Source: Siphonodentalium dalli
Taxonomy: Eukaryota; Mollusca; Scaphopoda; Gadilida; Siphonodentaliidae
Assembly: GCA_032622095.1 (NCBI GenBank)
Contig: CP136067.1
Coordinates: 121,617,030 to 121,681,029, forward strand
Length of the DNA stretch: 64,000 bases
Reading direction: 5' to 3'
Below are positions 60 to 52,863 of the stretch, in pieces. The translations under genes were made by a program, and so were the position numbers. The notes under the pieces are model-generated. The model worked only from the letters and a program-made list of their open reading frames with translations. It had not been told where the DNA came from and searched no databases. The number at the start of each line of letters is the position of its first letter. Within the stretch, counting starts at the first letter, position 1.

Positions 60-462
60 TTAACCCTTTACCCAACAAACCGGCCAAAAACGGCCAAATA
101 AAGCTGCAACAGCCTAAATTATCTTGGGTCTGTCTCAATAAAACCATACAAATATGGATATCATTGGAATCGGCTCATTGACCACATTGTGATGGTTACA
201 GTTATGCCCTGTGCCAATGCATTCTCTCTTATATATGCGAGTCGACCATAGGTCGCCTCGCATATATAAGAGAATGCATTGGCCTAAAAAAAAAAAAAAA
301 TTTAACACTTTTTACCATTTTTTCTTACATTCTTTAACAATTTTATAATTTTTAATGTGTTAAGCCAATGCATTCTCTTATATATGCGAGGCGACCTATG
401 GTCGACTCGCATATATAAGAGAATGCATTGGCACATGGCCGTTTTGTTGGGTAAAGGGTTAA
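60..462 (+). mobile_element. TTAA-flanked piggyBac-like small element, copy A
   Basis: TTAA lies at both ends (60-63 and 459-462). Inner termini are CCCTTTACCCAAC and its reverse complement. Two 69-bp palindromes sit at 213-283 and 364-432, around an AT-rich core. The left arm is long and the right arm short. There is no coding capacity. TTAA targets and CCC/GGG ends are known for piggyBac; assignment to that superfamily is inference. Confidence 0.82.
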
Positions 463-837
463 TACATGTTGTTCTCAAATATATAACGAAATGTCGTATG
501 TAGAAACAATTGCTAGGTAAACAAAACTGGTACAGTGTTTGTCAATAACCATCGCAGTAAGTAATATTGAGTTACGGCTACGTTTAGGGTACTACATGTT
601 ACGTCATCAAAGTATGCGCACGACGTGTCTAACTGTAGCCGTGATATCCTAACATTTGACGCGGATAGGGTATTAATTTCGCCAATTTGTACCAAAAAAT
701 TCATTTAAAACTACAGCCACTCTACTCAGTCAATTAATTTTGTTATATCACACGCTCTGATTTGGGTGTCTTTATTTGTATATATTTTGTTAATCTAATT
801 CACTGTCATTTCTAATCTTGACTCGATTTTGATAATC

Positions 838-903
838 TGTTTCTTCTCGTCGTGATATGGCTTTGTTGCTAAAACGACGTTAAACCCAAATCAATCAATC
901 AAT
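838..903 (+). repeat. SINE-type 3' tail with short repeat end
   Basis: CGTCGTGATATGGCTTTGTT, then an AAACGACGTTAAACCCAAAT segment, then ATCAATCAATCA. A conserved GTTAAAC segment followed by a tetranucleotide tail is typical of SINEs I know from mollusc genomes. The 5' part was not delimited. Confidence 0.5.
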
Positions 904-1496
904 ATTGTCATGGAATTTCTCCCCGGTAATAAATTCAATGTTTATTGCGATATCTGCTGACAAAAGTAAGAAAAATCATACAATCTCGAGCTGAGAGCAC
1001 CTGTAGTGTGAAATAGATATATTATTAAGGAACAAATATTAACAAAGAAATATATTAAGTGTTGTTTATTCAATGTTATAAAGTTACCCACGTTAGAACC
1101 GGTCAGAACACCAAAACGTTACAAGAAAACCATAGTCAGAAATGGTAACGCGCTCAAGATAATATATTATATACCCCATGATTGTAATTATAGAATATAA
1201 AATATATTGGTTTCACGAATTACCAACTCATAGAATTAAGCGCCTTGGACTTCTTGGCATCCGAATAACAATTGAAATTGAAATTCCCAACTACACCTTT
1301 TACCGGACTCGGCCTCCAGGTAGCAGTTCGACTTTTAATCCGTCCCAAACTTTCTCATTTCTATAAATAAAACGCCCATGCGCCCACTGTATACCAAGAA
1401 TCAGCGACACATTATACACGCGGATCGCGAAATGAACTGGTGGATTATAATTTTTACAGGCGTGTAGACAGAGTAGAGATGCATTACATGACAAGT

Positions 1497-1810
1497 GGCT
1501 GGGCGGATGGGTTTTACCACCCCCCGTTTTTTTGGTCAAAACGTTTAACAGTTGGAAATGCCTGACACATCATTAAGTGACAAATTTACATCACTTGTTT
1601 ATAGACCAACATCAGCATATGTTTCAACTTTTAATCAAAATTTTGGTCTGAAATATACATCATTTGGACATATTCCTTATGGGGTGTCAGGAAAGTTGGG
1701 ACGTCTGAGGTACTACTTGAAAAATCTCAACCCAAGGAGGGTGGACATGGTGGTGGAATGTCAAGGTGGACCTGGGAAATTTCAAGATGTACCGGCGGCA
1801 TCTAGCCACG
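1497..1810 (+). repeat. Degenerate dispersed repeat (Z family)
   Basis: Contains AACAGTTGGAAATGCCTGAC, CATCAGCATATGTTTCAACT and TTTTGGTCTGAAATATACATC motifs, also found in varied order at about 11600-11950 and 16715-17075. Boundaries are unclear. Apparent reading frames here look accidental. Confidence 0.4.
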
Positions 1811-2061
1811 CAAGCCTTGACATAGGGTGTCTGTCATTTGCAGAATGAGGTCCCCAGAGGGTGAATTTAGTGATGCTACCCCGCATAGCGGGCTAGCATC
1901 ACCAAATTCACCCTCTGGGAACCTCATTCTGCTGAGGTGTCAGAATGAGGTTCCCAGAGGGTGAATTTGGTGATGCTAGCCCACTATGCGGGGTAGCCTC
2001 ACTAAATTCACCCTCTGGGGACCTCATTCTGCAAATGACAGACACCATATTTCAAGGCTTG
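1811..2061. mobile_element. F-family double-palindrome element with 8-bp target duplication
   Basis: Ends CAAGCCTTGA and TCAAGGCTTG. TAGCCACG flanks both sides (1803-1810, 2062-2069). Inside, two back-to-back palindromes each pair an AGAATGAGGTCCCCAGAGGG arm with its inverse around GCTACCCCGC-type centres. An 8-bp duplication fits hAT- or P-like transposition; the superfamily is inference. Confidence 0.85.
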
Positions 2062-2561
2062 TAGCCACGTTCCTTTATTTCCATTATTTCCAAAAGGTTG
2101 AATTGTTTTAGTTGCTTGAAATCCTGAATTATAAGGCATCTTTACGCAACCATTATCGACAGATATTAATTGAATTACAAATACCAATGATATTTGCAAA
2201 GCCTATCAGTCTAAAACTGTCATATTAATTTAAATTTGAGTTAATGAACATGGCTAAAGCGAGAACCGTAGTGTGAAGATAAGGTATTCCTTCCGTCCCG
2301 ATTTAGTCAAATTTGCATCTCCATATCGAGTAAAGTCACCACAATATGAATTACCCATAATGCTGTATGAAGTCAAGGTATATAGTGACATTGCCACAGC
2401 GGGTCGTTGGACGAAAGTGAGACTATATATGTGGACCATGGGGATGAAACATAATTGGAGGACAATGTGTCCTCAATCAATTTGCGTCCTCTCTGTGTCT
2501 CTCGGTGCACTATATCACACTCTTGATTGCGTCACATATATACTCTGCTCCGCCTACAGCT

Positions 2562-3744: not shown

Positions 3745-4130
3745 TTAAAACTTTACCCAACAGAACGGCCCTGTGCCAATGCATTCTCTTATTTATGCGA
3801 GTCGATCATAGGTCGCCTCGCATATATAAGAGAGAATGCATTGGCTTAACACATTAAAAATTATAAAATTGTTAAAGAATGTAAGAAAAAATGGTAAAAA
3901 GTGTTTAGGCCAATGCATTCTCTTATATATGCGAGGCGACCTATGGTCGACTCGCATATATAAGAGAATGCATTGGCACAGGGCATAACTGTAACTATCA
4001 CAATGTGGTCAAGGAGCCGGTTCCAATGATATCCATATTTGTATGGTTCTATTGAGACAGACCGAAGATATTTTAGGCTGTTGAAGCTTTATTTGGCCGG
4101 TTTTGGCCGGTTTGTTGGGTAAAGGGTTAA
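3745..4130 (-). mobile_element. TTAA-flanked piggyBac-like small element, copy B
   Basis: Same structure as copy A but reversed: short arm left, long arm right. TTAA is present at both ends; the left terminal CCC is mutated. Palindromic modules are at about 3777-3845 and 3909-3977. Confidence 0.8.
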
Positions 4131-4189
4131 AACTATACTCTTGGAAAGATCTTTACAGTTTTGCTTATGCAAGTCAGAGGTATCACCTT

Positions 4190-5588: not shown

Positions 5589-5644
5589 ATAGGGAACCCA
5601 TTACTTTCAAAAAGTGTCAGTCAACACAATGTTCGCAGGACTAA

Positions 5645-6098: not shown

Positions 6099-6498
6099 TT
6101 AACCCTTTACCCAACAGAAGGGCCCTGTGCCAATGCATTCTCTTATATATGCGAGTCGACCATAGGTCGCCTCGCATATATAAGAGAATGCATTGGCTTA
6201 ACACATTAAAAATTATAAAATTGTTAAAGAATGTAAGAAAAAATGGTAAAAAGTGTTAAAAAAATATTTTTTTTAGGCCAATGCATTCTCTTATATATGC
6301 GAGGCGACCTATGGTCGACTCGCATATATAAGAGAATGCATTGGCATAGGGCATAACTGTAACCATCACAATGTGGTCAAGGAGCCGGTTCCAATGATAT
6401 CCATATTTGTATGGTTTTATTGAGACAGACCGAAGATATTTTAGGCTGTTGAAGCTTTATTTGGCCGGTTTTGGCCGGTTTGTTGGGTAAAGGGTTAA
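6099..6498 (-). mobile_element. TTAA-flanked piggyBac-like small element, copy C
   Basis: TTAA at 6099-6102 and 6495-6498, intact CCCTTTACCCAAC ends, and two 69-bp palindromes at about 6129-6197 and 6277-6345. Orientation is as in copy B. It lies just after G-family copy G1 and abuts a further inverted-repeat element at its right end. Confidence 0.83.
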
Positions 6499-11300: not shown

Positions 11301-14300
11301 TAAACAAATCAAACAATCCATGCAGACTCAAGTGTAAAATATTACTTCCACTCAAACGATGGAAGATTAAATGACTGCTTAATTAGAATGGAGGCCACGC
11401 CTCCAACTGTTTATGAATATGATGGAATAGTTTAATCAGCATGCATATTCCACTTCTAGCCACATAAATGCAATAAAAATGTACACAAATACAGCCGTAT
11501 CCCATGTATAAGTCACATTATAAATATTATGGATACACATAATGTGAATACATAATCAGTCATGGGTCGGTACCGACAGCTTGATGTTGTTTTTTAAAGG
11601 TTTCGTGGGATCAGGGACAAGTCAAACAAAAACTGTTCAAAAGTTGGAAATTCCGTGCCTGATACAACATCAGTTGGAAATTTCAGACTCCTAATTTGTT
11701 ATTATTATTACCATAATTTGATAGTTCCAACCTGTATGTAGCGTGAAATTTGTCATTTTATACCGAAAGTCTCATATTTTCTTACTATATCGGTATTTGT
11801 TATGACTGATATATGGGTATCAGTTCTAACACTAGGCACTATAGGGGGATGTCAAGCTTGGGGCACCAGTTTAAAATTTCATGAGAAGGGGTGAAAATGG
11901 ACCTCCCTGACTTGATTATTTTGGTCTGATTCAAGAGGGTAATCTGGACACCGTCTAACGGAGTCCCCTAGATACGTCCCTCTGTGAGATAATAATAAAG
12001 TGAAGAGAAATCACCGCGGACGCCATTGTAATAGAACACAACATAAACAACCGGCCCTTTGATAGACAAAACAATTACACAGAAGGCAATGGATATATCA
12101 AAGAACAATAACAGTATACATTTACAAGGATCTCGAAATAAAGGTTGCCAAGCTATATATTTATTTCATACTTCATTTGCTGGATAAGATAGTATGCACT
12201 TAAAACAACCAGAGTAATGGTTTTGTACAATTTGTTGATCTGGAACAATACAGATTTTCTTCCCTGGAGAGGTTGTCTAAATATGAGCATGACCGATCAG
12301 TTGGCACAATAAGAGAGGTAAAAAGGCAGAGTCCAGGATGATTTGGTCTAGGTTCTTTGTTATGACCTAATCTCTACAAGAACGCACCAGTCATACTTCC
12401 TTTCTGACTCTGTCATCGGCTGGGTACTGGTCTGTGTTTCTATATTTACCATGGGGTTTTCCAGCAAAAATGGCGACCCGATCGTTCCAAAGTCAAATTT
12501 TCTATGTGGTTTGAGGACAATTCCCGCACTAAAACATAATAACAGAATGGAAAATCAGAGCGGTAGTTTTGTTGACGATTTTCGCAAGCTACTCATCAAA
12601 ATTGCAGCAAATTAGAACTCTTGTGTTTGACTTGCCGTGCGAGTTGTGAAAATGTCGTACACGTGCGTTTATACTTTTGTGTTTGATAAAATAATCGGAG
12701 AACCGATTCACACCGATTCACACCGTTTCGAAATATAGTTCTTCGGTTTTAGTGGGACTTTTCAAACATTTACACAAATTTTGTTCGATCTGTTGTGTGC
12801 TTAAAATATATATCTTAATATCCCGGAAGTCCACAAAACGTGGGTAAAATGTCGCCGGTAGCAGCGGTCTTACCGAGTAATCAAGGGAGGTAAACCCTGC
12901 GTGGAGTTTGGTTATGACGTCGGTTGGATTCAAGCAGTCGCTCCGAAGAAGGAAGGCAAATATTGAACAGTCATCACCCGAGTCCAGTACAGAAATGTAG
13001 CCACACCGAATCGGTTAATTATATGCTCCCAATAGGCATTCCTGATCGAAAGCAAACGGTCGTCTGTGCAATATCTCATGGCATACAGTAATAATTCGTT
13101 ATTAAATGAGTTAGTACAAGGTCCACAGATGCGATTGTTGTCAAACCTCGTTCTGTTCAGAAGTACAGCGAAGGTTTTTAGCGTCCGGGGACACTGGATA
13201 TGACAATTTGAGCCTGCATCTCCAGATGCTCCAGACTGAGAGTGGTTGGGGTGTGTTGATCGGAATATTTTTAGTGATGAGTCGGAAATACCTTTGTGAA
13301 ATTTAATGTTGTCCCACTAGTGTTTGGCGCGCTGTTGGGCCTTATGAAGAGTGTCATCCCAAAAGACACAATCATTACTACAACATGTATACGACACGTC
13401 TCAGTATCGTTCATATTATCTGCTGAACTCTTCATCAAACAGACTAGAGTATTGTTACACTAGTATAGGCGTTCTTTTGTGGGAGCCTATATGGACGCTT
13501 TTTACCTTAGAGAAGAAAAAGACATCAATTTTAAAGCTGCTTTCATAGAGCTGCGGCTGACGCATGCGGTCAACGCATGTAGCTATCGGGTCATATGCAC
13601 AACGTTTCAAATCATACATATGTGACCCGCCATATCAAATCCAGTCGTAAGTCGGGATTTTTTACCCTGTGCCAATGCATTCTCTTATATATGCGAGTCG
13701 ACCATAGGTCGCCTCGCATATATAAGAGAATGCATTGGCCTAACAATGTTTACAATTTTTATAATTTTTATAATTTCACCCATACAGAGCCCCAGACACA
13801 TGAGCAGACGACACTCTTCTATATGCTTCTATATATGTGTGGGGCTCCCTGCAGGGTAATGGATGTTTTTTATTTTATGTCCTAAAAATTGTAAGAAACA
13901 TTTATTTAAAAAAAATGATAAACAATTGTTAGGCCAATGCATTCTCTTATATATGCGAGGCGACATATGGTCGACTCGCATATATAAGAGAATGCATTGG
14001 CACAGGGTAAAAAAAATCCCGACTTGCGACTGGATTTGATATGGCGGGTCACATATATCACTTGGGATGCGGCTGACGCAGTTAAACGTTTTGAAATCGG
14101 ATGCGTTCAGCCGAAACCCCAGTGATATACATGTATGTATGGATTGAAACGTTGCGACTAACCCGATAGCCGCGTGCATTGGCCGCATGCGTTTGGCCGC
14201 TTGCGTCAGTCGCATGTATGCGAAAGCAGCTTAAGGGGCTTGTTACATGAGCCGGGGCAACTCGGCTAGCCGGGACAACCTCGGTTTGCAGGGTGGCCCG

Positions 14301-17300
14301 GTCTAATGTGCTTGCTCACTAAACATATGGTGTGCTGTTTCATGAACGGGTCCACTCGGCAAACCGAGATATCCCTTAGGCCAATGTATTCTCGTATATA
14401 TGTGAGGCTCCCTATGGGACAACTCGGTTAGCCGGGACAACTCGGCTCATGTAAAAGCGAGTCATCCCGACCAGCATGGATGAAAGTCTGGAACGTAACA
14501 CGATTCGTTGGGACTTGACATGGCTTTAGCCAATTGATTGCTCGCGTCATGTGAGTTACGTTTAGTGACAACCAAAGCCACTCAGTTATGGGCGTGCCGA
14601 CATTCGGGGCTGGCGTCGTGACCCGTGATTGACAGCTAGATGGATAGCCAGTTGCGTGAACGTCAAACCGAGTTGTCCAGGTTAACCCAGTTTTCTCGGA
14701 TCATATAACAGCGTGATCGAGTTGTCCCGAGAGACCGGGTTGTCCCGGCTCATGTAACAAGCCCATAAGGCAGACGACCTCGCGTATAGAATATCAACGC
14801 ATCGACACAGCTGGTCCCGTACACGGCATGTGCACGAAGACAGAACAGTCTGTATCAAGCGACGTAAATACGTCCAATTGTCGCCGGCCATTTGTCTTTG
14901 GATTAGGAATTGAAAATGTTCTCGTTCATCATTGTTTACGAGAACACAAAGTGATTGAAGCTCCAAAAAATAAAACAAAACAAAACAAAAAACCAACCAA
15001 CAAACAGAACAGACGAAACAAACCAAAAAACACATATTAATATTTATGATTATGTTAGAAGATTTTAAGCCAAAGCAATGTGTTCGTCTTTCACGGGTTT
15101 TGACCTCAAAGGGGGCGACTCAAATATAACTTCAAAGCAGACGACATCGTGCAGAAACACGTCGTCTTTCATGGTGTTTGACCTTTGAGGGGGCGACTCA
15201 AATATGACTTCAAGGCACTGAAGGCAGACGACCTCGTGCAGAAACACGTCGTCTTTCTTGGAGTTTGACATTTGAGGGGGCGACTCAAACATAACTTCAA
15301 GGCAGACGACCTCATTCATAAATAGTTCGTCTCATTTAGTCCCACCCGGTGCCATGTTTGCAGGCATGCAGTCAGAGCAGACTATCAAGTGACGTAAACA
15401 CGTCCAATTGTCGCCGGCCATTTGTCACTGGAATAGGAATTGAACGCCATGTGCTCGTTCATCATCGTTACGAGAGTACAAAGTAATTTGCAGCTCCGAA
15501 TGTAATCAAATAGCTGGTGCTTGGCCGTGGGATACTTGTCTCATTCGGAAGATTACCCGTAAACTTCGTTACAAATACTTCACTGGAATTAAGTTGTGAA
15601 TATTTGTAGACGAAATTGGATTCCCTCAATTGACGATGACTTGTCATGAAGAGACGAGGAATTCAGTAATCGCGTTTTTTCGTATACACGGATATGATAT
15701 AATTGTGCAGCTGGGCCATAATATCCAAACATTGCATTGTGCTTAAAGTTATGTGAAACACTCCGGTAGGGTGATCTAATAGAAATGGAGAATAATCTTG
15801 CTCAATGCAGCTATTTTTATGAATATTAATCCAAATTTACAACACACACCGTCGTACTGATATATTAATTAAATGCAATGACTCTCGATGGCGAAATCAT
15901 TTGTGTGTGTTTATCGTCGATAGTTGCGTCCCGAATCGAGATGTAAATATTTACAATTGAGCGTAGTTCAGAAGATGTTTTCTTTGGAGTGGTATAGTAT
16001 ATTTCTTTGAAATTTTCGGCGATGTTAGTAGAATGCTACATTCCCAAGCTTTGCATAACGCCTGAGTACTAACTTATTAGTTTCAAGCACCCGAACAAGT
16101 CCACAATATGTCTTTAACGCGTTCCATACTAAACACTGATTGATGAGTAATTCCCTTAGGAAATTCTCAGATAATAAGTTTTTATATTATTCATATATAT
16201 AGTGAGTTATTATCTGAACATGCCCTAAAATTAAAAGGCCTCTTCTCATTTTTATTATCAACCGTCTACTTATTTTTCCAGACGAATATTGTATACATTT
16301 ATAACTGAGTGGGAAAATTCATTTAGTATAGAAATGTTTAACATGCCATGTTCCTGTGTATTAGGATATGTTCAGATTCTCCCGGCAATAAACAATCGAA
16401 AGTACACGTATATGTTCACCTGATCATATTCTGCACATCCGCTTAGTATATTGCTCATGCACAATCCTGCAACAGACAATTAGCTGTGAAAAATTGCATG
16501 TAAAAATTGCATCTCAATAATGCCTATCAATTTTGACATAAGTGTGAACGGAGCCTTATGTGGTGGGTATGAGGATTCAACTACAGCCCAGTATAATTCC
16601 GTTTTAGAAGTATTATTTATTTGCTCATTTTACCTATTTTTGACTCACGAGTGATCTCCCTTTTAAATTCGCCACCATACACATACCCATGTACGTAACA
16701 ACAGGGGGGGGGGGGGTGCCTGACACAACATTAGTTGGAAATTTTACACACACATAAGTTGAAATTGTTCTCGTTGTTTGATTATTGGGAAGTGTGATGC
16801 CTTTACACCTTAACAGCAGCATATTTTATATTTCTACTTTTTGTCAACATTTTGGTCTGAAATGGACATCAGTTGGAATTTGTCCAACCTTAGGTGTGTC
16901 TAGTTGGATAGTTTGATGTACCAGTTGAAATGTCCCCACACAAGGAGGCGGAGCTAGGTGCAACTGGTATTTTGCGAACATGTGAGTTTGGCCAGGTTCA
17001 AGGGGGAGGGGGCATATTGGAAATGTCAATGTGGACATCCAAAGGAGAACCTCTGTAGCCACGTCCCTGCACACACCTACGGAAACGATGTTGAATGCAA
17101 ATGGCTGGCATCAAATCTTTTGAATTCCAGCTTCGAGGAGCTGTGATATCTTAGTATATGAAAAAATTAGTTACCTTAGCACCACATTAACAGACATGTA
17201 TGTCCCAGCATAATAAGAATCGTTCGTGACACGTAGTGGAGCAACCACACACGCTGAATTTGCTTTTTATCGACGACATAACGCTAAGAATAATTTATGT

Positions 17301-20300: not shown

Positions 20301-23300
20301 GAGAACCGGAGGTTAGAGTTTTACCTCGCGGTACGACAAACGAGTGCAATAACGTTAACATGTTCACAAAACTGCATGTGTTGTTCTTTGTTTTTTGCAC
20401 ACTCTGAAGATTGCAGCTTGTAACATACAAACATTAGGTCGATATTGTTGTATTTAATTGAACAAACGTGTGCTTAATGTAGACTGTACCCCATAATTTA
20501 GCGAAGACATTTTCTGTTAAAGTTGACGTTGCTGGCGTAATGTGTTTGTATTGTTCAAGAGCAGTACACATTTTATTATTGAACGTCTTGAAATCTACTG
20601 TATTTTGCTGTATTGCGCACAAATAAGCCATTGGATGTACAATACAAGCCTATTTATCACTGTTATGTTTCCAAAAATATGTCCAATATGAACCTAGATG
20701 TGAATATTGATGTTGCTTTAGGTGTGTGTTTTATATTTGAGTCATGATTACCGACATGATGTTATGGTCGTGGTACGCGAAATGATGGCTGAAAAGATAC
20801 GGGCGGGGTTGGCGGTGGGTATGCTGTTAAAATATTCACCTCCGTCCAAAACCGCCATAAACAGAAATAATAGTAAAATATAGACAGACCTTGTTCTTAT
20901 ACCAATCAGAAATATGGCATAAACAGTATATGTTATTGTCAAATGGTTTTCCTTTTTTATGTAAACAAAAGCAAAAAAACGTTACAGAACCTGGCTTTTG
21001 TTTAGATTCGGATATGATAAACATAAAGAGCGTTATTTGTTACTGTTTTCCTGATATGGAAATAATAAAGAGCGTTTATATCATTTGTGTGTGATTGACC
21101 AATATAATTGCGCTGTGTTATGTAAACATAAGCAAAACGTATGTAAGGCTACGTTCATACGCTGGCAAGTTTGCACGGTATGTTTTTGCGGGTATTTCGT
21201 CATAGAAAACCACATGGTGCCACGGAACAGTGCACATAACATGCATCTTTACCAAAGCGAAAGACACGAGAAGTGACATTTATCTAATTCCACTTGTACC
21301 AGTGCTATTGGAATTTGCCTTCAAATACCTGTATGATTTATTCTTGCCAGATAATTGCATGATATTTACAGGCAAATTCCGGTAACATCGTTACTAGTGG
21401 AACTACATATATTTTACTTCGTACGTAGTTAGCTGTGGCACAGATGCACTTTATGCGCTTGTTTCCGTTCATATTATGGCACCATATCGTTTTATACGAC
21501 AAAATGCCTGCAAACCATACCGTGCATACTCGCCAGTGTTTGAACGTACCCTAACACGAACAGGCTCTTGTTTACGTACACCATCGTACGTCTTGACGAC
21601 AATATACTATTGACGCGCTGATTATGTTTGGCATATGAACAAAACTGTATATTTTTTTAATATTCCTTCTTTTGATGGCGATTTGAAGAAATATGAAAAT
21701 TTTCAACGAACGCGCCCGTGCCTTTAACCTGAAGAAACAGACAGATTTTTTTTTGGGTATGCTTAAGCATGATATAGCGAATTTAAAAACAAACTGGCTA
21801 AAACCTTAGGGGCATGTTATAACTCAAAACTATCACCAAGTATTCATAGTAATAATTTTGATGCCCATGAAAACGTAAGATTCCCTAGCACTAAACCTAC
21901 AAAATAAGTCTTGCACTGAAAGAGTTAAAGAATATAAGAAAACATTATTAAAATTGTAAAAAATTGTAAAAAATAATAACAAATGATGAAAAATTGTTAG
22001 GCCAATGCATTCTCTTATATATGCGAGGCGACCGATGGTCGACTCGCATATATAAGAGAATGCATTGGCACAGGGTATATGGATTGAAACAGACACATAG
22101 GTCGGATTTAAGGCTCCTAATCATGTTAACAAATAGCGTCACTTCACCCACGAACTGATATACATATTCTTTAGATATTTTATAATCAGATTTGTTTTTA
22201 TTTCAATAAATGATGAGATCTGCTAAGAACGGTGATAATGTCGTCCAAACACTGAAGCAGTTTTGCCTATTTTTTTTCAGTCCATATATTTCACATCTTG
22301 CTTCATGTTTATGAATTATTTTCAGTATAGCTCTGTCTTTTCTCTCAACATCTCTTGTCTTACAATTCTCGATCAGAATTTCGTTTCGATTGTTCTTGTC
22401 ATTTTTGGCTGTTTCTTTTTCAGATGGCGACGGAAAGGGGAAACGGTACTCAAAAGCAAATACATGTTGATTGCGATTGTGATTCTCTGTATAGCTGACT
22501 GTGCCTTCGTTCTCGGAGAACTGATTCTCGACCTACACAGAGTTAAATGTGAGTAAACTATCGCGATGCAAGACCTTCAAGCAACCAGTAATTGTCGAGC
22601 CTATAATTAACCCTTTCACGACCGGAGCTGCCCTGTTTCAGCATTAAAGATCATGTGCTGGTGCATCATTAAAGATCCCGTGCCAGTTCATTCTCTTATA
22701 TAGGCGAGTCTCCCATAGGGAGCATCGCATATATAAGGGAATGCACTGGCTTACAAGGCCTATGTAAATATTGTTATTTATGTGAGTAAGTGAGACTCGC
22801 ACATATAAGAGAATGCATTAACACAGGGTTTTCGCAAAATTTCAGGAAGCTCCAGCCATGTAAGGGTTAAAACACAGAAATTGTTTGCATAAGAGCATAA
22901 GCTATATTATTAGCGTGCTGTCCAATCCTCTTTCTTGAAGGCCCACTTAATTTTCGAATCACCAAATCACATTATATACAACATATTCCATATTATATAC
23001 CATGAACCCCCAGATCACATTATATACAACATATTCCATATTATATAACATTTGAAAGAGGAAGATCCAAAACATTGTATTATCAACTTATCTGGTCGAA
23101 TAAACTGGGAACATGTTGTTTTTGTCAAGGTACCGATGTGTGTTCTGTGCTTAATTTTGATTCGGACTGTACTATAAAGTGTATTACTCTCAATGGAAGG
23201 GGAATAACGCTATATCTTAGTTTGAATTATGATGCATTCTGGGATGACAACGGGGGGAGTCTTGGAATGAACCTGAGAATCGCTATCACTTGGTAGACAC

Positions 23301-26300
23301 TCCTAGCTAGGCCACATCTCTTCCATATTCTGGTGGAATAAAATATATTTTTGGTTCCTCTTCCAAATGGTATATAATATGGACTATATTGTGCATAATG
23401 TTTTCTGGGCATTCGAAATTACGTGGGGCTTTAACCTATTTGTATAGATATGTGTATTGTGCTGTTTGATTTCGAAATACATATTGTTTACACTATATAA
23501 GAGAATATTTGATTAAATCACCGAGTAAGACATAAAGCATATATTACACCAACTTGTACTAATCAATGTCAGAACCGAGACGATATTGTCAGGAAGGATT
23601 ATTCGTGATTGCCAGATCACCTGATTGTGAAACATATGAAGATCTGCCGATATATGGCGCATGTCGATTTATACAGATTGATTGGCCGATAGAGGGCATG
23701 TCGGTGATTATTTTTTGGTATAATCGTACTTATTATTTTATACGATCACATCAGTGTCATTACTTTGGCAGTTGGCCAATGCTGTTGCATTTGTGAGAAA
23801 GCAAATAAAACACTTTACCCCCCCCCCCCCCACCACCCCGCACCAAAAAAAAACCACCATAAAAACCGGAATTAAAATAAAGAACTGGCTTGATAATTCA
23901 CACCTTATACAGGTGGAAATAAAGTTGATATTGGGCTAACTTATGGTTATCTCATGGGGTGATCTCAAAACTTGTGTTGGGTTGCAGAACAAGAAATAAG
24001 AAATATTCAGCGCAACCTTAGGGTTCGTTCACACACTCGTAAGTTTTCACGGTATATTTTGCAGGCATTTCGTCGTAGAAAACATATGGTGCCAGAATAT
24101 GAACGGAAACATGCAAATAAAATGCATTTGTACCAAGCCAACTACGTGAGAAGTAAAATCTCTGTATTTCAACCTGTAGCGATGCATGCTATCGAAATTT
24201 GCCATAGCATGCAATCATCTCACAAGAATCAACCATAGAGTATTGGAGGGGAAATATCAGTAGCACCGTTAGGTGTGGAAGTATATATATTTAGCTTCTC
24301 ATTCCGTTAGCTTTGGGTAAAGATGCATTTTATATTTAGATGTCTTCGTTCATATTTCGAAACCATATAATTTTCTACAACGAAATGCCTGCTAAAATAC
24401 AAGCAATGTTACCAGCGTGTAAACGTACCATAAATCATCAATGAAACACACACATTATACATCATTCTGTAAAATCGCTGACTAGCACTGGCATTCCCAA
24501 CCACCCACAGACATAAATACTCGTGCTATTCGTTCATCGGGGGATTGCTTTTCTGAAATAAGTGTGCAATGTGCATAAATATAAATCCGAATATGAATAA
24601 ATGAATACAGTTTAATAATATTATTGCGATAAATAAAATAACTCCATGTGGATATATTACACACTAAATGCTACAACTTCTGCAGAGAAATATATGAGCA
24701 TGGTAATGTTTTCGATCGGCGCCGAATGAGTATCCATTAATTCCTGTCAAAGTAATAGAGTTATTCCGCGTTAGCTTCGTGAATATATCGGATGTTTCAC
24801 ATATAATAATCATTAATCCAATACTTTCTGAGATCTATGAGTTGTTAATTAATCAAATGTATTGACCATGCATGCATGGTGTGTAAACATGTTGACATAA
24901 TTTGAACCATTTTTGGTTCGCCAGGTTGGCCAAGATTGATTGCAAAACTAGAGGTAATTCATTGAGTGTTAACGATCAATAAAAATCATGATAACACCAT
25001 ATAGACAGGTCTGGCAAATCTTGAATTCAACTTATATAGTTATAGTTAACCCTTTACCCAACACACCGGCCAAAACCGGCCAAATAAAGCTTCAACAGCC
25101 TAAAATATCTTCGGTCTGTCTCAATAGAACCATACAAATATGGATATCATTGGAATCGGCTCCATGACCACATTGTGGTAGTTACAGTAATGCCATGTGC
25201 CAATGCATTCTCTTATATATGCGAGTCGACCATAGGTCGCCTCGCATATATAAGAGAATGCATTGGCCTTTTTTTTAACACTTTTTATCATTTTTTCTTA
25301 CATTCTTTAACAATTTTATAATTTTTAATGTGTTAAGCCAATGCATTCTCTTATATATGCGAGGCGACCTATGGTCGACTCGCATATATAAGAGAATGCA
25401 TTGGCACAGGGCCCTTCTGTTGGGTAAAGGGTTAAGACATACATCATGTTGCGCGCGGTTAGGGCACGTTCACACACTCGCACATTTGCCAGGCATTCTT
25501 TTGCAGGCATTTCGGTGTAGAAAGCTACAGTAAAGCCCTAAATAATCGATTCATTAACCACAGCAGAATTATGGTAACTTTTCAGGATTTATTCGGAAAT
25601 ATGGCTTGTTGCCATTCATCGGAAAGCTCTCACTGAGAGCTTTCCGATGAAGGGCAACAAGCCATGAGAGCTTTCCGATGAATGGCAACAAGCCATATTT
25701 CCGACTAAATCCTGAAAAGTTACCCATAATTCTGCTGTGGTTAAGGAGTCGATTATTTAGGGCATTACTCTACAATGTAACAGAAACCGAATGCAAAAAA
25801 ATGCTTATAAAATTCATCTGTACCATAGGTAACAACATGAGAAAAAAAAAACTTTGTAGAACCACTATAGTAGCTATGCTATCGAAATTTGCCTGTAAAT
25901 AGCATGCAATTATCTCGCAAGAATGAATCATACACTGCAGGTATTTGAAGGCAATGTGTTAGTAGCATCATTACTTGTGGAACTATATACCGAAACTTTA
26001 CTTATCATGGTGTTAGCTTTGGTAAATATGTATTTTATATGCATGTTGCCTTTCATATTCTGGCACCATAGGGGTTTCTATGAAAGAATTCCTGCAAAAC
26101 ACACCGTACACGTAATCTTAACGTTATACAATTATCTAGTCATACATTATATAACTCTGTAGCGCGTGATAGTACATTTGTCATTTCGGTTATATAAGGA
26201 TTAACTGTCATGTGGACTGTTTTTATGGAGATGTAACGGTGAGGTAAGTGGACATAACTTGTGTAAAACCCGAAGGGTTTTACATACAAGTTATGTCCAC

Positions 26301-29300: not shown

Positions 29301-32300
29301 AAGACAGCACATTGCTACTGGCTAATCACACACAAATGGCATAAACGCTCTTTATTAGTTCCATATCAGGTATTCACCAACAAAGAACGCTCTTTATGTT
29401 TACCATCATAATATAAACAAACACCAGAAAAGTAACTTTTTATGCCTTTGTTTACATAACAATGGTCAAAAATATGACCATAACATACTGTTTATGCGAT
29501 ATTTCTTATTTGTATACGGACAAAGTCTATCTACATTTTGATGTTCTTTCTGTTTGTGGTGGTTTTTGACGGGTGGAAATATTTTCACAGGATACCCACC
29601 GCCAAGGCCAACCGTGTCTTTAAATACTACGATTCCCACACATATGTACTGCACCAGGCATGCCTTCCATATTTGGAAACATTTTGATTACATCATACCG
29701 AGAAGCCCCGTCGTCCTAGACATCAAGTCTCGATCACAGTCTCACAGACGTGAATCTGATAAGTTTATCATCCGTTCAAGTAGACTGTGCCTGAGGCTGC
29801 CGTATACCACTGGACACAACATCAATACTCTTTATCTCTGTACTGTCTAGATCGGATACTCTATTTAATTTTACGCCATCTTAATTGGGTTTTCTTTAAA
29901 AAGCGGTGTATATTAGGTATATAATATTTTTCTTAATGCCAAGAAAAGTTTCTTAATATAAGAAATTATTTTTTGTTTTAAGACATTTATTTCTGACCAA
30001 GAAAATTATTTTTGGCAGTGTACCGAGACGGATGAGTTCGGCTACACTCCATATCATACCAAGTTAATGAAGTTATCTCAATTTTCCGTTTAGTTGGCAG
30101 TTATTCCAGTTATGTCATGTTTAAGAGAAGACCGTGTTACAGCATGAATGACAAACTAAACGGACCAGCTGCGCAATAAGAATGACCACACGTTCAACTC
30201 TGGACTGAGTAGAGACAGTAATTTTTGTTTGAATACCTGAAAATTCTCATTTGCGTATGGAAAGATATTTCGGTATTCAAACATTAACTGTTGGTATTCT
30301 CTATTTATTTGAGAATAAACATTTGAACTTGTTGTCTGTTGTCAGCTTGTATTACCTAAACACATGTATATGTTGCAGTAAATATGTAGAATAACTTATT
30401 CTCTGAACAATTGGTCAAAAGTTCAAGAGATTCCCTGAAACGACAATTGATCAATGTATTTATTATATGATCATTAACTTTCTTCTAAAAGTCCCATACT
30501 AAATTATTCGAATAAGGAGTTGTTAAATCATGATATCTACTGGATTGTCCTATAAATAGGACAGATAGGTTAATAACAAGATCACGTTACGTCATGAGTT
30601 GTTAATAGGAATTGTAATCCTGTTTTTTAAATTTTGACTTTTTGAATCACTTTGTTGTGCATTTGATGGATATTCGATACATGTACATATCTATACACGG
30701 GTCAGTAAGGAATTGCGGACGTAATGGGCTTGTTAACATTGGTAGATCATATAATAAAAAAATTATTGCATTGTTTCGAGGTTGACATGAGGATGTATCA
30801 ACCCTTGGAAGTTAATATTCACCTCGGCCTGCAGCCTCGGTGACTATTAACTTCCGCGGGTTGATAAATCCTTATGTCAACCTCGAAACAATGCAATAAA
30901 TGTATAATATTATAAAAAGCTGATAATACTTAAAGTTACTACATCTGATTTGACATTTAATTGTTGAACTTCCCCAATGTTTCGTCTATCAAACAAACAC
31001 AGCATGAAAAGTAGTAGCTGTAGTATATATATAACACAAGTTAATGCATTGTTTTGATGTTGACACGGGGAATTGTCAACCCTTGCATGGAAGTAGGCCG
31101 TGGTGATGTATTTACGTCCAAATGGTTGATAATTCCTTGTGTCAACCACGAAACAATGTGATAATTGTATAATGATGAACACCAAACTGGAGAAAACGTT
31201 ATACAGTAATGGCCTAAATAATCGACTCCTTGACCACAGCATAACTCTCAGTGAGAGCTTTCCGATGAATGGCAACAAGCCATATTTCCGACTAAATCCT
31301 GAAAAGTTACCCATAATTCTGCTGTGGTTAAGGAGTCGATTATTTAGAGCATTACTGTAGTTCTTCAATACTGTACCCACTGTCACTAACACGGATAATT
31401 CTCCTGGATCTTATTAATCAGAATCATGGGTTAGTACGTGTCTACAATTATTGTAACAATTGGCCATCACCATTACTTTAAAATTGATAATATATTACAT
31501 CTATGTTGTACATGTACAAATATATAGGGCATTACTGTATATGATAATATATTTCATCCTATATTACAGATACATTGGAATTATCGGAGAAAGTGACCTT
31601 AGACTTCATGAACAATCTCCGACGAATTCACCCGGATGTGATAGAACCTGGTGATTCGGATATCAACATTCTATATGCGAAAATTCTCAACGCTAATATC
31701 ACTTGGGATCTTAATTCCACAAACAGCCGTAGTTTCTCAGACTTTCCGGAATTTGATTCTGAAAATGTTACTTCTGGAAACGATTCTATAATTTCATACT
31801 ACTTCACCAAAGAACATTCCATAGAAGAGGAAATCGCCCACGTCTTTCATTTGGCTAGCATCGTCATCATCTCTGTTATAGTATTCGAAGTGAGTATTTA
31901 GTAAATATGTGACCCGCCATATATAATCCAGTCGTAAGTCGGGATTTTGTTTACCCTGTGCCAATGCATTCTCTTATATATGCGAGTCGACCATAGGTCG
32001 CCTCGTATATATAAGAGAATGCATTGGCCTAACAATTTTTTATCATTGTTTTTAAATAAATGTTTCTTACAATTTTTAGGACATAAAACAAAAAACATCC
32101 ATTACCCTACAGGGAACCCCACACATATATAGAAGCATATAGAAGAGTGTCGTCTGCTCATGTTTGTCTGGGGCTCTGTATGGGTGAAATTATAAAATTG
32201 TTAAAGAATACAAGAAACAAATATTAAAATTGTAAAAAAATGTTAGGCCATGCATTCTCTTATATATGCGAGGCGACCTATGGTCGTCTCGCATATATAA

Positions 32301-35300
32301 AAGAATGCATTGGCACAGGGTAAAAAAATCCCGACTTACGACTGGATTTGATATGGCGGGTCACATATATGTACATTGGCAATTATACCATGATCACTGC
32401 AGGTATACACGTTTCAAATACGTTTTGAACGGCAAAATGATATACCTACACTTCCTACAGTATAATAGGGGACTATAATAGAATGGCGACGCTGGGAGAG
32501 CTTGGCACTAAACAATGATTAAAAATTGTTAGGCAAATGCATTCTCTTATATATGCGAGTCGACCTATGGTCGACTCGCATATATAAGAGAATGCATTGG
32601 CACAGGGTAAAAAAAATCCCGACTTACGACTGGATTTGATATGGCGGGTCAGATATATAAAATATATTGGAGCTTTATAACGTAGTGTATATATATAGGT
32701 AATGGCTATGTAGTTGATTATATGTCATATTTTTGTATGTGTGTATATAATGTACGCTTCTTGAGAAAACATATGAAATCATTTTTTTAAATTGGACGTG
32801 CCAAACTAAAGTTATGATAATTATTAAATATTTATTAAATATTTAAGCACCCTAAGTACCATACGCACCAAATATACCACATGATATGTGTTCACAAATG
32901 GCGCATTCGTTCCAATTGTTGAAAGGTTCATCGCCAAACATGCTACGGCCATTGCATTGATAAACCAATAACCACACACCCAAAAAAAGTGACGAACGTC
33001 TTGACGATTGAGTTAACGTTATTATGTTGACGCGCTGCCAGCTCGCGGCAAATACACTATAAACTGTTAGTTTCTCGGTTCTCTTATACGACATTTGAAT
33101 TGTTTTTTGCTGGCATATGTCTTTTCTTTTGTTATTTGTTCTAATTTATATTGAAATAGATGTTTGAATAGTGCATGAAATAGCATGCAGAATAATAATC
33201 AGGCCAAAATTATCAATCTTCGTTATATGATTCAAGTACGCAAATACCGAGTACGTCTGTAATCAAATTTAGTCCATCCAAGTACGCAAATACCGAAACG
33301 TTTGTAATCACATTTACAGTAATGCACTAAATAATCGACTCCTTAACCACAGCAGAATTATGATTAAAACCCGTAATTCTGCTGTGGTTAAGGAGTCGAT
33401 TATTTAGGGCATTACTGTAGTCCATCAACTCCTACGGCATGTCAGGGTATAATAACGCAATATGTAGAGAGAACACCGACAATTTCATGGTAGTAACATG
33501 ATTTCCCCGACGCATGGAGCTACGATCCCGATATAGTCTGGTCGATAAACTAAAATTTTAGGGTCAACCTAGAAAAAATTTGGACTAAGTTGGTTTCTAT
33601 TCCATTTTGAAGAGGAATATATCCTCTATAACATATCCAAAATCCGCTAAAATCCGCTTTGAGCATTTTCTGTAATACAAGATGGCGTCCATGATGGCAG
33701 TTGGTATAGAAAAATCCTGAATTTCGGTGGTAGGTGCGCCAACAAATACCAAATTAGTAATAAAATAAAATCCACACAAACAATCCTTAGTCGTAAACCA
33801 TATCGGTAGAATGTCTGTCCAAAATGGCCGCCAAAATGGACAAAATCGAATGAAATTTACAATTTGCGGAAAATTGAATAGCTGGTTATACAAGAACGAA
33901 CAGGCCGTCGAATTATTCGAGGAATAATGATTTCAGAGTATAAGGGGAGCTATTGATAATAGTATGTAAGAATTCTCTCTAATGTATCTCGCGAGAGAGC
34001 AACCGAAAGCCAGGTCTCATACAACGATTGAATGTGAACTTTTTGGGCGCCAAGAAATAGAAGAATAACGCAGTTTTATCTATACTGTTTATCTTGAATC
34101 GTGTAATATATGTGTATTAAAACAGTTAAATATGATCTAATAGGGATGTACTCATTGTGTGACCTTTTCTAGAAGCAGAAATATATGTAATGAAAACAGT
34201 CTCACGAATGTGACCGATAATCATTTATTTTTGAATCTACAACACACAGTCTGTCAACATTCACTACTATAGAACAGTATGAGAGCTATTCATATGGTAC
34301 TAGGTAAAATGTGTAGATCCTATTGTCCGTGTCTTAAAATAGTAGTCATAGTTGCCTCCGGTCAAGTGATTAAACACGAATATTTCATTTTTATCACACA
34401 AATACATGGTGGTACACAATGAACGCAATTTATCAAAATACAAAGGATTACAATAAACTATCTTCAATAAATTCTCAACATAACCCAATTTGCCTACATA
34501 CTCTATGACAGAGACTGTCTTTATACCTGGAAATTATGTGCACATATACGCGAAACGTACGACCTTTTCTGCAACCGCATCGCCGCGTTTACCCATTCTC
34601 CCTAATGTTACACATATCTGCTGCATACAAAACCATAAATAGCAACATTGAGTGAATGGTAAACGCAGAACTAATAACTGTAAACGCTGATGACCTGATA
34701 TTTAGCGCAAGTATGTGGGTGGCAATGGTAACATAATTTCAAACAACAAGATACTGACAACTAATAGTGTGTATTGTGGGGTACATATTCACATCGCAAA
34801 GTGCCGATTGAAGTAATTTGAACATAATTGTCTACTAAGAAAACGGTTTGGGAGCACCATGAAAATTAGTACTAAATAAAATGTACGACGTACAGTCTCT
34901 TCGATCTAGTGAGATATGGTACTATTCTGTTGAAGAGATAAGTGTTTCTTGACAGTATAATCAGCATTACGACATACGTGTATGGTTTATTGTCACGGAG
35001 AGTGTTGAAAATTCTGGAAATATAACTAGTATTTACACAGATAGGGTGGGCTCTTCAGTTTCTGCTTTACATTCAATAATTAATCATCATTCCAAAAGGA
35101 AACTACCACGCACTGTGTGACAAAATATTACTTCGTGTGTTGCATGCCCAAAATAACTGTTTTTGGTCCGACTGTTGGATGTATTCTAAAAAGAAAACCC
35201 GAACGTAAAACATTGGGTTAACGTGCGTAGCAGTGATCGATAAATCATTCAGATAGATCTGTTTTAATTATATGTGTACCTTTAAAGATATATAACAACA

Positions 35301-41300: not shown

Positions 41301-44300
41301 AACAAAAATGGTAATTATAATGAAAATGAATTCATGACAAATTTTCATTATAATTATCATGTTTTTTCAATCGTTCATAGAGAAGACGAATGTATGTTGT
41401 ACTAATTCATGGCTCAAATTCATTCATGTGTTGCACATATTCTTTTGAGTATAACAGGAGATGGTCCGGTCCCATTAATGGCCGGATTTTGTGCACAGTC
41501 CACCTTTAAATACTTATTATGGACTTATTTCAGTAAATGAAACTGATAAGTTAGTACTTAGACACTATACAGGAAGAGGGTAACAATACACTAACATTGT
41601 AAACAAAATCCAATCACATCGACTTATGCCATTTCTGAACTACGCACATACATTGTATAATAATATATGTAAATATTACTCTTTTAGGGTACGTTCATTA
41701 CTAGCTGGCAAGTCTGCACAGTATGGTTTGCAGGCATTTCGTCGTATAAAAGGATATGGTGCCAGAAATGAATGAAACAAGCATATACAATGCACCTGTA
41801 CCACACCTAACTACATGCGAAGTAAAATCCCCGTATAGTTCCACCTGTGGCCATGCTACCGAAATTTGCCTGTAAATAGCGTGCAAGAATCGATCATACA
41901 GGTATTTGAAGGCAAATGTCAGTAGCGCCGTTGCAAGTGCAACTACGGAACTTTTACTTCTCATGTCGTTCACTTTGGTAAAGATGCATGTTATATGCAC
42001 GTTTACTTTCATATTATGGCACCATGTGGTTTTCTATGATGAAACGCCCGCAAAAACATAACGTGCAAACTTGCCAGCGTATGAACGTACCCCTCAGTTG
42101 TTATGTTTATTCTGATAGCAAATTTATGAAAATATCTAATTTGGGCAAGATTATTTGCTACACCGTTCTGGTCATCCTTTCGGGGTGGTGCACAACACTT
42201 TAACATATCTGCTATTGTCGACAAGATTCAATGTCTCTTCAATGCAACACGTCCAACAACAGTAACTACCATGTTACCCCCTCTCTATCCAAGTCATCAA
42301 CGAGAGACAACTCTAAATATGTGCGATAGTCCGTTAAACTGTATTCATGAAGTAACGAGCATATATATGAATGAAATTTGGGAAAACATTGTGAAGTATA
42401 CATTGTGTGGGGAGAACGGACGTCATTCTTATATATTAATTAAATGCAGTGACTGCCGATGGCGAAATCGTTTTCCGTAGTTTATCGCCGATAGAAGCGT
42501 CCCGATTCGAGTAGTAAATATTTACAATTTAGCGTTGTTCAGACAATATTTTTTATGGAGTGGTAGAGTCGATTTTCGTGAGATTTTCGGTGATGTTAGT
42601 AGAATGCTACATTCCTCCAGTTGGCACCGCACCTGTATACTAACTTATCAGTTTCCCGCACCCGAATAAGTACATAATATGTCTTTAACAATTTTGTATT
42701 ATTTTTTTCATTTTTCTTACATTCTTAGCAATTATAAAAAATAATATAAAATAAAATTTGTTAGGTCAATGCATTCTCTTATATATGCGAGGCGACCTAT
42801 GGTCGACTCGCATATATAAGAGAATGCATTGGCACAGGGTTTTCGCCAAAAAATTCAGGAAGCTCCCGTCATGAAAGGGTTAAAGACATATTATGTACTT
42901 GTTCGGGTGCGGGAAACTGATAAGTTAGTATTCAGGTGCGGTGCCAACTGGAGGAATGTAGCATTCTACTAACATCACCGAAAATCTCACGCAAATCGAC
43001 TCTACCACTCCATAAAAAACATTGTCTGAACAACGCTAAATTGTAAATATTTACTACTCGAACCGGGACGCTTCTATCGACGATAAACTACGGAAAACGA
43101 TTTCACCATCGACAGTCACTGCATTTAAAGACATAGTATGTACTTGTTCGGGAGTGTTTCACATCACATTAAAGAATGTTAGAAAAAATTATAGATATGT
43201 AAGAAAAATTATAAAAATAATACAATTGTTAAAGAATGTAAGAAAAAAATGATACAAATGATAAAATTGTTAAAGAGTATAATAAAAAATTATAACAATT
43301 GTTATAGAATGTAAGAAAAAATGATAAAATTTGTTAAAGAATGTAAGAACAAAAATGATACAAAATGATAAAAAATGCATTTTCTTATATATTTACCAGG
43401 CAACCTATGGGAGACTCGCATATATAAGAGTATGCATTGGGTTTTAAAATATCAATTAAACGGGGCATCTTGAAATCAGATATAATTTTCTGAATGTCTG
43501 TGAATGAATGAGGACTCTCACATGTCGGTATCGTCCTTTCATATCAGGGAGGTTTCACATGCCGGTATCGTCATTTCACATCAGGGTGGTTTCACATGTC
43601 GGTATCGTCATTTCATATCAGGGAGGTTTCACATGTCGGTATCGTCATTTCACATCAGAGAGGTTTCACATGTCGGTATCGTCATTTCACATCAGGGAGG
43701 TTTCACATGTCGGTATCGTCATTTCATATCAGGGAGGTTTCACATGTCGGTATCGTCATTTCACATCAGAGAGGTTTTACATGTCGGTATCGTCATTTCA
43801 CATCAGGGAGGTTTCACATGTCGGTATCGTCATTTCACATCAGAGAGGTTTCACATGTCGGTATCGTCATTTCACATCAGGGAGGTTTCACATGTCGGTA
43901 TCGTCATTTCACATCAGAGAGGTTTCACATGTCGGTATCGTCATTTCACATCAGGGAGGTTTCACATGTCGGTATCGTCATTTCACATCAGAGAGGTTTC
44001 ATATGTCGGTATCGTCATTTCACGTCGGAGAGGTTTCACATGTCGGTATCGTCATTTCACATGAGGGAGGTTTCACATATCGGTATCGTTATTTCACATC
44101 AGGGAGGTTTCACATGTCGGTATCGTCATTTCACATCAGAGAGGTTTTACATGTCGGTATCGTCATTTCACATCAGGGAGGTTTTACATGTCGGTATCGT
44201 CATTTCATATCAGGGAGGTTTCACATGTCGGTATCGTCATTTCACATCAGGGAGGTTTCACATGTCGGTATCGTCATTTCACATCAGGGAGGTTTCACAT

Positions 44301-51027: not shown

Positions 51028-51668
51028 TTTATTCATTTTTAATTCGAGTTTCTTCCCCAGTATCATCTATATTATATGATTTACTTTTCAGCATTTGAGA
51101 TAAACTCTGCTATTTCTGGGTCGTATTGGCGGCACCCACATGACGTCAAACGTGGTGCTTTGGGTGCGATATTCAGAATGTTTTTTGTGGCTTTGAACAT
51201 GTCAACTTGGCGTTTGATTTTCATTTGACATTCGACTCTCAGTTGAAAAGGACTTTTACATCAAGATAAACATGGTTCTGTTTACTCAAATTGATATCTG
51301 CATCAAAATTTGTTAGACTCCAATTACAACATTTTCAACCAACGCACATGACATATGATGTCGTTTTCATCTGTTTAAGTTTAATGCGTCTTTCCTACTC
51401 ACTAATGTCTAACAATATGCTACGAGTGTCAAAATATTGGACAGAAGAATGTGGTTGTTGTGTGCACGTAATGGTGTTAACACACAGACTCTGGCGTTAC
51501 ATAAATTTGAACTCATATAAGAAACGAAGTTAGTGGACGCTAAAGGTAAAAAATCTAATTTGATACCTTATTGCAACAATAATATGAATTTCACTCTAAG
51601 CATTCTAAGCCTGCAATTCATTCATTAATATATACGCCATACATACTGACGGCTGGGGGCGGGCACAA

Positions 51669-52092
51669 TTAAAGGTACTCAATCCGATTAAGCACCCATA
51701 AATTACTATTTCTTTGGCTTCAGCGGTTAAACATATTTGATTCGAGTCGAGGAACCCACCCATCAAAGCTCAGAGTGATCAGATATTTATTTTTGAAGTT
51801 TGTTATTTTTCGAGATGTGTACTAATAATTGCCCCATAAACACTTATTTAAACGGACGAAGATGGATAACTCTAAAATCAAGTGGTAATAATAACGCAAT
51901 TTGACCGAGACCATCCTTTTTGGCGGCGTGTTTCTGGGCCACAAACAATATAAATAACAAAACTTCAAAAATTTATATCTGATCACTCTGAGCGTTGATG
52001 GTTAGGTTCCTCGACTCGAATCAAATATTTTTGACCCCCGAAGCCAAAGAAATAGTAATTTATGAGGGTCTGGTCGGATTTAGTATCTTTAA
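51669..52092. mobile_element. S-family element, copy S2
   Basis: TTAAAGGTACTCAATCCGAT to CGGATTTAGTATCTTTAA. A long inner fold pairs GAAGCCAAAGAAATAGTAAT with its inverse. Lies about 640 bp after the stop of gene 1; the 51028-51668 stretch shows no clear AATAAA. Confidence 0.8.
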
Positions 52093-52404
52093 TGTTGAAT
52101 TGACTGTGCTGAATTGTGGCTGAACAATAAATGGCGTTCCGCCTCAATATTCCCCAAAAATTGTATAAAATAACGAACGTTCACCCAAAAGTAGATCCCG
52201 TATCACACAATTTGGAGACATTGTTTACCAGATGTGTGACTGGTCAACACCAGCTACAAAGTTAACAGTCAAACAGACATAATGACGGTGTGATTCTGCT
52301 ATATCACGACATTGGCATGTGCAAAGTTATATAGTTTGGATCACTTTTGACATAAGAGTATTCAAAATCATCCTTATCTTGGAATCAACGTGTACATTGC
52401 ATAT

Positions 52405-52863
52405 ATGACCCGCCATATCAAATCCAGTCGTAAGTCGGGATTTTGTTTACCCTGTGCCAATGCATTCTCGTATATATGCGAGTCGACCATTGGTCGCCTC
52501 GCATATATAAGAGAATGCATTGGCCTAAAACAAAATTATCATTTTTTTTAAATAAATATTTCTTACAATTTTTAGGACATAAAATAAAAAAACATCCATT
52601 ACCTTGCAGGGAGCCCCACACATATATAGAAGCATATAGAAGACTGTCGTCTGCTCATGTTTGTCTGGGGCTCTGTATGGGTGAAATTATAAAAATTGTT
52701 AAAGAATACAAGACAAAATTATTAATATTGTAAAAAATTGTTAGGCCAATGCATTCTCTTATATATGCGAGGCGACCTATGGTCGACTCATATATATAAG
52801 AGAATGCATTGGCACAGGGTAAAATAATCCCGACTTACGACTGGATTTGATATGGCGGGTCAC
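52405..52863. mobile_element. GTGACCC-end inverted-repeat element, copy E3
   Basis: 459 bp, closely similar in layout to E2. Palindromic modules are at about 52457-52525 and 52744-52812. The first base of the left end is changed (ATGACCC). Confidence 0.8.

Follow-up and report, generated by a model that had tools for sequence, protein, structure and literature searches.

A 69-bp hairpin module common to several DNA-element families with different ends in the scaphopod Siphonodentalium dalli

A 64,000-nucleotide stretch of the genome of the scaphopod mollusc Siphonodentalium dalli (GenBank assembly GCA_032622095.1, contig CP136067.1, positions 121,617,030 to 121,681,029 of the forward strand; hereafter the window) carries many copies of a 69-bp palindromic module, and these lie within families of short mobile elements, here called A, B, C and E, which are non-autonomous cut-and-paste elements (miniature inverted-repeat transposable elements, MITEs). 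A search with a 20-bp arm, allowing at most 3 mismatches, resulted in 40 matches in the window as compared to a mean of 0.01 over 100 shuffles. A profile search brought the window total to 19 full and 3 half modules by adding one decayed full copy (43373-43441) and half copies at 14380, 22774-22822 and 26797, and the arm profile at an E value of 0.5 matched nothing in the reversed window. The elements and their modules are given below in window coordinates; modules were located by arm and profile search, with any other or further basis named in brackets.

60..462, + strand: family A element 1, TTAA + CCCTTTACCCAACA, long arm left and short arm right (ends, TTAA flanks, alignment)
213..283, + strand: module A1L, with a 2-bp insertion
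284..363, no strand: AT-rich spacer of the shared unit in A1 (sequence comparison)
364..432, - strand: module A1R
3745..4130, - strand: family A element 2 (ends, alignment)
3775..3845, + strand: module A2L, with a 2-bp insertion
3909..3977, - strand: module A2R
6099..6498, - strand: family A element 3 (ends, alignment)
6129..6197, + strand: module A3L (also DNA fold)
6277..6345, - strand: module A3R
25046..25435, + strand: family A element 4 (ends, alignment)
25199..25267, + strand: module A4L
25337..25405, - strand: module A4R
22607..22870, + strand: family B element 1, TTAA + CCCTTTCACGACC..., an old copy (ends)
22682..22750, + strand: module B1L, centre CTCCC/GGGAG (also consensus)
22774..22822, - strand: half module B1R (profile search)
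26749..26838, + strand: family B half element with a half module from 26797 (profile search)
42685..42883, - strand: family B half element (B3) with a young module, one true B end and TTAA plus spacer at the other edge (ends)
42765..42833, - strand: module B3R, young centre
13622..14052, + strand: family C element 1, GTGACCCGCCATATC..., TA/AT flank (ends, alignment)
13671..13739, + strand: module C1L
13933..14001, - strand: module C1R
31909..32364, - strand: family C element 2 (ends, alignment)
31960..32028, + strand: module in C2
32246..32314, - strand: module in C2
32513..32652, - strand: family C half element, left limit approximate (sequence comparison)
32533..32601, - strand: module in the C half element, its mismatch reading T:A (also DNA fold)
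52405..52863, - strand: family C element 3 (ends, alignment)
52456..52524, + strand: module in C3
52745..52813, - strand: module in C3
21812..22100, - strand: long-form family E element bearing a single module, its limits approximate and its outer end left open (by eye, match to locus L058)
22001..22069, - strand: module in the E element
43168..43441, - strand: decayed module (43373-43441) adjoining tandem ~32-bp spacer units, ends not found (profile search)
14376..14417, + strand: 42-bp fragment, a half module plus inner junction, in the element at 14231-14768 with TTAA + GGGGCTTG ends (profile search, ends)

The module is a palindrome composed of a 27-bp arm, a T.C mismatch, a tip stem CGACC-ATA-GGTCG and the inverse arm, and it folds as single-stranded DNA with -35.4 kcal/mol (z -15.6). 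Sixteen of 18 full-length modules measure exactly 69 bp and the other two measure 71 bp through a 2-bp insertion, while the centre is of the CGACC type in 17 of the 18, a few with one change inside it; the remaining module (22682) has the centre CTCCC/GGGAG. Homology continues past the 69 bp, such that the shared half-unit consists of CCCTGT on the outside, the hairpin, CTAACA or a close form on the inside, and an AT-rich spacer made of related ~32-bp units. CCCTGT precedes the well-preserved modules, with one change in some copies, and the outer homology between A, B, C and E ends sharply at this motif, the families differing beyond it. Two inverted copies of the half-unit are found in A, C and older B, and one copy in E. 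The original prediction of about 17 modules plus decayed copies was borne out, and its statement that paired modules face each other with their asymmetric centres inverted as well was confirmed in the window, although several elements there carry a single module only. Its description of a 69-bp module with a 15-bp asymmetric centre holds for the palindrome; the centre itself proved to be the hairpin tip with one T.C mismatch below it, and the unit reaches beyond 69 bp on both sides. An Rfam scan of the window gave no matches at gathering score.

Family A has TTAA + CCCTTTACCCAACA ends with one arm of ~150 bp and another of ~26 bp; CCCTTTACCCAACA forms both ends as a terminal inverted repeat starting CCCTT, one window end (3749) having decayed to AACTTT, and TTAA flanks all four A elements of the window. 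Family B, which is old and diverged, has TTAA + CCCTTTCATGAC-type ends and two modules ~26 bp apart, and family E has TTAA + CCCTTTGAGTGCCAGG ends and a single module. A, B and E all start TTAACCCTT, with piggyBac-type TTAA/CCCTT ends, and only these first bases are common to them; from ~10 bp inward the arms of different families are unrelated, and the module is identical. Family C has GTGACCCGCCATATC ends unrelated to the TTAA/CCCTT ends, near-identical ~50-bp arms, and flanks of ATAT (left) and ATATAT (right) in all three complete window copies, and because of these flanks it is not considered a TTAA-type element. The C flanks are compatible with duplication of TA, AT or ATAT, in the context T-AT-A and not A-AT-T, the latter being the context of the AT target duplication of ISL2EU in the accessible part of PMC4482050. 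The three families originally proposed do differ in their ends, and their number has grown: the orphan module at 22001 was assigned by eye to E because its internal sequence matches locus L058, and a 42-bp module piece lies in the element at 14231-14768 (TTAA + GGGGCTTG ends, right flank ATAA), which may be Kolobok-like judging by its GGGGCTTG end and the Kolobok termini given in the accessible text of PMC9587614. The half element B3 bears a module with the young centre at its B end. B3 also sits at the centre of a palindrome (42440-43128) with 255-bp arms (96%), and by eye its flanks join at TTTAAA, with one true B end and, at the other edge, TTAA followed by spacer, as though a cryptic end had been used.

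Genome-wide pattern counts covered 2,226,750,531 bases in 9 contigs, with the reversed pattern as control. The search for the arm across the genome proposed in the original prediction was run with at most 2 mismatches and gave 257,541 forward and 257,549 reverse matches (control 0 and 1), corresponding to ~257,000 modules. CCCTGT plus arm matched 102,337 and 101,880 times (control 0 and 0), A ends 52,983 and 53,058 times (1 and 4), C ends 13,527 and 13,564 times (0 and 0) and E ends 13,938 and 13,975 times (0 and 0). A total of 120 places were drawn at random within 1-115 Mb of the nine contigs, and the first 20 were used at 10 kb each (200 kb). These stretches contained 35 modules, with 9 of the 20 having none, which scales up to ~390,000 modules (95% interval 200,000-601,000, resampling stretches), diverged copies included. 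All 35 adjoin A, B or C sequence, a placement relying on flanking sequence rather than on both ends: 31 were placed by script (B 16, A 13, C 2) and the remaining four by eye (three B and one truncated A), leaving no free-standing module in the 200 kb. Additionally, among loci chosen from the first 100 C ends listed, 12 of 12 have the arm 43-52 bp inside the C end (two further ends at locus edges were left out of this count), and all 11 A elements found by both ends contain arms. Patterns for empty A and C elements had no match genome-wide, a weak result as the search skips very common words. On contig C1, between ~0.73 and 0.92 Mb, modules and A ends are regularly spaced at intervals of ~14.56 kb and ~11.17 kb, as tandem arrays of long units that include A elements and modules.

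Comparison of module consensus sequences from five half-unit classes of A, C and E showed no difference at any of the 69 positions in all 10 pairings. The consensus was restricted to copies of exactly 69 bp, 49 of 55 (A-long 10/13, A-short 8/11, C-r 13/13, C-l 11/11, E 7/7), and some of the 55 had been found by exact arm match. Because finding copies by arm match favors the module, the drift test in A used only elements found by their ends, from random and window sequence (10 of 11, one without the long arm being dropped). Variants shared by at least two of these A copies occurred in 10 of 163 arm columns as compared to none of 138 module columns (p=0.002), and pooling A, C and E gave 15 of 456 columns outside the module and none of 345 within it (p=0.00025). 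The drift counts omit a C copy without orientation marker (L038), C loci lacking both ends and the long E copies L058 and L059, and two of their eight E copies (L002, L005) had entered through an arm match. Private changes are found in the module as well: in A they number 6 in 1375 module cells versus 11 in 1245 cells of the long arm (p=0.22), and in C they are about equally common in module (21/1202) and flanks (31/1363). Their presence indicates that single copies decay after insertion, perhaps more slowly in the module, and no shared module change was seen. Spacer consensuses differ between families, with an inner identity of 53-85% that is rough given the AT-rich alignments. A first module-versus-arm comparison (p down to 2e-9) was set aside, since it included copies found by exact arm match and was biased toward the module.

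As regards pairing within the hairpin, 25 stem substitutions were counted in 49 young modules, none of them compensated, and the T.C mismatch was retained in 48 of the 49. The consensus of left-hand B modules (n=9) differs from the young consensus at 6 sites, which amount to 3 restored pairs (5-65, 30-40 and 31-39). A looser B consensus was discarded as its search pattern was too permissive. At loci L002, L005, L053, L054 and L055 the hairpin or its centre has been deleted, as expected of unstable palindromes.

Matches to piggyBac transposases number 128 in the genome, and many of them have open frames; one family ends TTAACCCTTTATCTGCT and another TTAACACGTTGAGTGCC, similar but not equal to the ends of A, B or E. 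The surroundings of 15 piggyBac transposase loci, out to 1.3-1.5 kb, contained no module, several of these loci being copies of one family and most element ends lying beyond that reach. Several of the piggyBac transposase families look recently active, having open frames as well as copies that are nearly identical (97-99.9%) from one locus to another.

Capture of the module by elements with different ends, one of the possibilities in the original prediction, is supported by the homologous unit, the identical consensus, the unrelated ends and the TTAA target of some families versus the TA/AT flank of C. We give an even chance to the fuller reading that one cassette was captured by several MITE founders and that the hairpin has been maintained in amplifying copies through a cis role in propagation. 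Under this reading the shared unit would be oldest in family B, with its CTCCC centre and diverged copies, and the founders of A, C and E would each have captured the younger form, with the CGACC centre, a single time, and it would then have been multiplied by whichever transposase reads the ends of each family. Source elements that lost or altered the hairpin would have spread poorly, so that the hairpin was kept, and it may act in cis in propagation, recognised either as a palindrome or as a folded hairpin; that no shared changes were seen in the hairpin suggests such a role. We propose only tentatively that this hairpin, whose T.C mismatch is fixed, serves as a portable amplification signal, such that a DNA element of any kind spreads more once it has captured the hairpin, whichever transposase cuts the ends. 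Such a signal could work, for example, by recruiting a host factor, by shaping a cruciform at excision or repair, or by countering silencing. An E copy at locus L007 with 11-bp junction homology was considered as a pre-capture element and dropped, as it could equally be a truncated copy.

Several observations weigh against capture followed by maintenance in cis. The consensus of right-hand B modules (n=11, including the young copy B3) restores only pair 31-39, its changes at positions 24, 30, 62 and 68 lacking a majority partner, and the window alignment yields modest signals only: of 500 shuffles, 4 attained its 3 double-changed pairs (0.7 expected) and 26 attained its covariation score. Shared variants were contributed mainly by family A, C having one such column anywhere. 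When spacers and short arms are counted, pooled private changes are fewer in the module (27/2994 versus 71/4197, p=0.005; by family 6/1375 versus 33/2186 in A and 0/417 versus 7/648 in E, these being counts with no significance figure), which makes homogenisation at the level of copies, or alignment noise in the AT-rich flanks, possible. There are also E copies without the hairpin (L053) or missing part of it (L054, L055), as well as a B-like end at locus L017 (2143) with no recognised module, and the split of old and young modules by family is not clean because B3 has a young module at a B end. Furthermore, we found no autonomous element bearing the module and no protein binding it.

The cassette could instead be a pure passenger, recently captured by the founders of A, C and E, with the module identical because too little time has passed, an explanation we regard as possible though doubtful. 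The module looks fixed in A and C, judging by the 11 A elements identified through both ends and the 12 picked C loci, as amplification from a founder would give, and the lack of matches to empty A and C patterns agrees with this, within a search that skips very common words; however, A had time to acquire its shared variants in the arm with none in the module, and the spacer consensuses have, on rough alignments, come to differ between families. An identical module across families, together with the pooled deficit of private changes, would also be expected if, across hundreds of thousands of modules, ectopic gene conversion overwrote changes in source copies. We consider such homogenisation unlikely, given that private changes in C are about as common in the module as in the flanks, that the mismatch has been levelled between arms in only 1 of 49 modules and that none of the stem changes is compensated; the B copies seen here are diverged within the module.

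A shared transposase site, also among the possibilities of the original prediction, is likewise improbable. The palindrome would then be a subterminal binding site of a piggyBac-type transposase, in the way that the cysteine-rich domains of piggyBac and piggyBat bind shorter palindromes. The TTAA/CCCTT ends of A, B and E and the many piggyBac transposases of the genome are consistent with this, and published piggyBac ends carry palindromes bound by piggyBac transposases (accessible part of PMC11707139), but the distance from module to tip varies from 26 to ~149 bp, E has a module on one side only, C is not a TTAA element, and none of the 15 transposase loci has a module nearby. Descent from one ancestral element with gradually diverging ends, the case that the original prediction set against its own proposal, may hold among A, B and E, which could be related through their common TTAA + CCCTT start, the old family B holding the older form of the module. 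For the families as a whole we judge it very unlikely, as C, having neither a TTAA target nor a related end, is not easily explained in this way and the arms are unrelated past the first ~10 bp while the module is identical. Lastly, the original prediction had offered an independent mobile hairpin. Such a unit would insert into MITEs by its own machinery, and the sharp stop of homology at CCCTGT in A, B, C and E would suit this, as would the TA on both sides of the unit at C, which by eye could be a duplication. This is nonetheless largely refuted and most improbable, since all 35 modules of the random sample stand beside A, B or C sequence, no direct repeat is seen by eye at A or B junctions, and the junction is identical in aligned copies within a family.

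Among known systems, the TTAA-flanked families resemble piggyBac-type MITEs in their flanks, their CCCTT ends and the presence of piggyBac transposases in the same genome, and differ in that the 69-bp hairpin unit also occurs in a family with other ends (C). Bacterial interspersed mosaic elements (BIMEs) have hairpins in alternating orientation around a spacer and are without coding capacity. The accessible text of PMC2817692 describes BIMEs as paired repetitive extragenic palindromic (REP) hairpins. The likeness is in the alternating hairpins around a non-coding spacer, the difference being that the present units are eukaryotic and lie inside MITEs with terminal inverted repeats. The pearl family of bivalves comprises modular non-autonomous MITEs with internal repeats, with a conserved palindrome near the repeat junction in DTC84 (accessible part of PMC5139131). 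Compared by description and not by sequence, pearl elements are alike in being modular, non-autonomous and palindrome-bearing, whereas what is shared in the present case is a long hairpin, present in elements whose ends differ. According to the available portion of PMC6887750, the V domain of V-SINEs (SINE, short interspersed element) occurs in the MER6 MITE, which is likewise a conserved module that has moved into a different kind of mobile element; there a SINE domain is found in a mariner MITE, and here a hairpin occurs, in very high copy number, in several families of DNA elements. KolobokP is a composite-like DNA transposon of molluscs and other animals, parts of which can be excised alone, and as far as the accessible text describes it (PMC9587614) it differs in its direct repeats, coding internal region and ends. 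The arm patterns had no match in viral and bacterial sequence collections and the C-end pattern none in the viral collection, and searches of the openly licensed literature brought up no description of the arm sequence or of this shared-hairpin MITE arrangement.

The window also holds a further long palindromic repeat (CAGAATGAGGTC...), nearly perfect and present twice, at 1811-2061 and 53731-54000. By eye, foldback repeats similar to each other (GGTAACTTTTCAGGATTTA...), at 25573-25724 of the window and at ~2310-2470 of locus L002, are both near an A element. Two minisatellites were detected, one at 43518-44540 (37 bp, 27.6 copies) and one at 48441-49219 (49 bp, 15.9 copies). Of ten window open reading frames compared to Pfam, only one ordinary enzyme was matched, a 485-aa open frame at 59696-61153 on the - strand (Beta_elim_lyase, E 1.2e-56).

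Why few MITEs reach tens of thousands of copies is an open question, the answer to which is usually sought in their ends. In S. dalli, several very successful families with different ends have one internal hairpin in common, and between source copies it is the hairpin that is free of drift. Should the hairpin act in cis, its effect could be measured directly by excising or scrambling it or by transferring it to other elements. If true, this would be module exchange between groups of DNA elements at a scale of ~257,000 copies.

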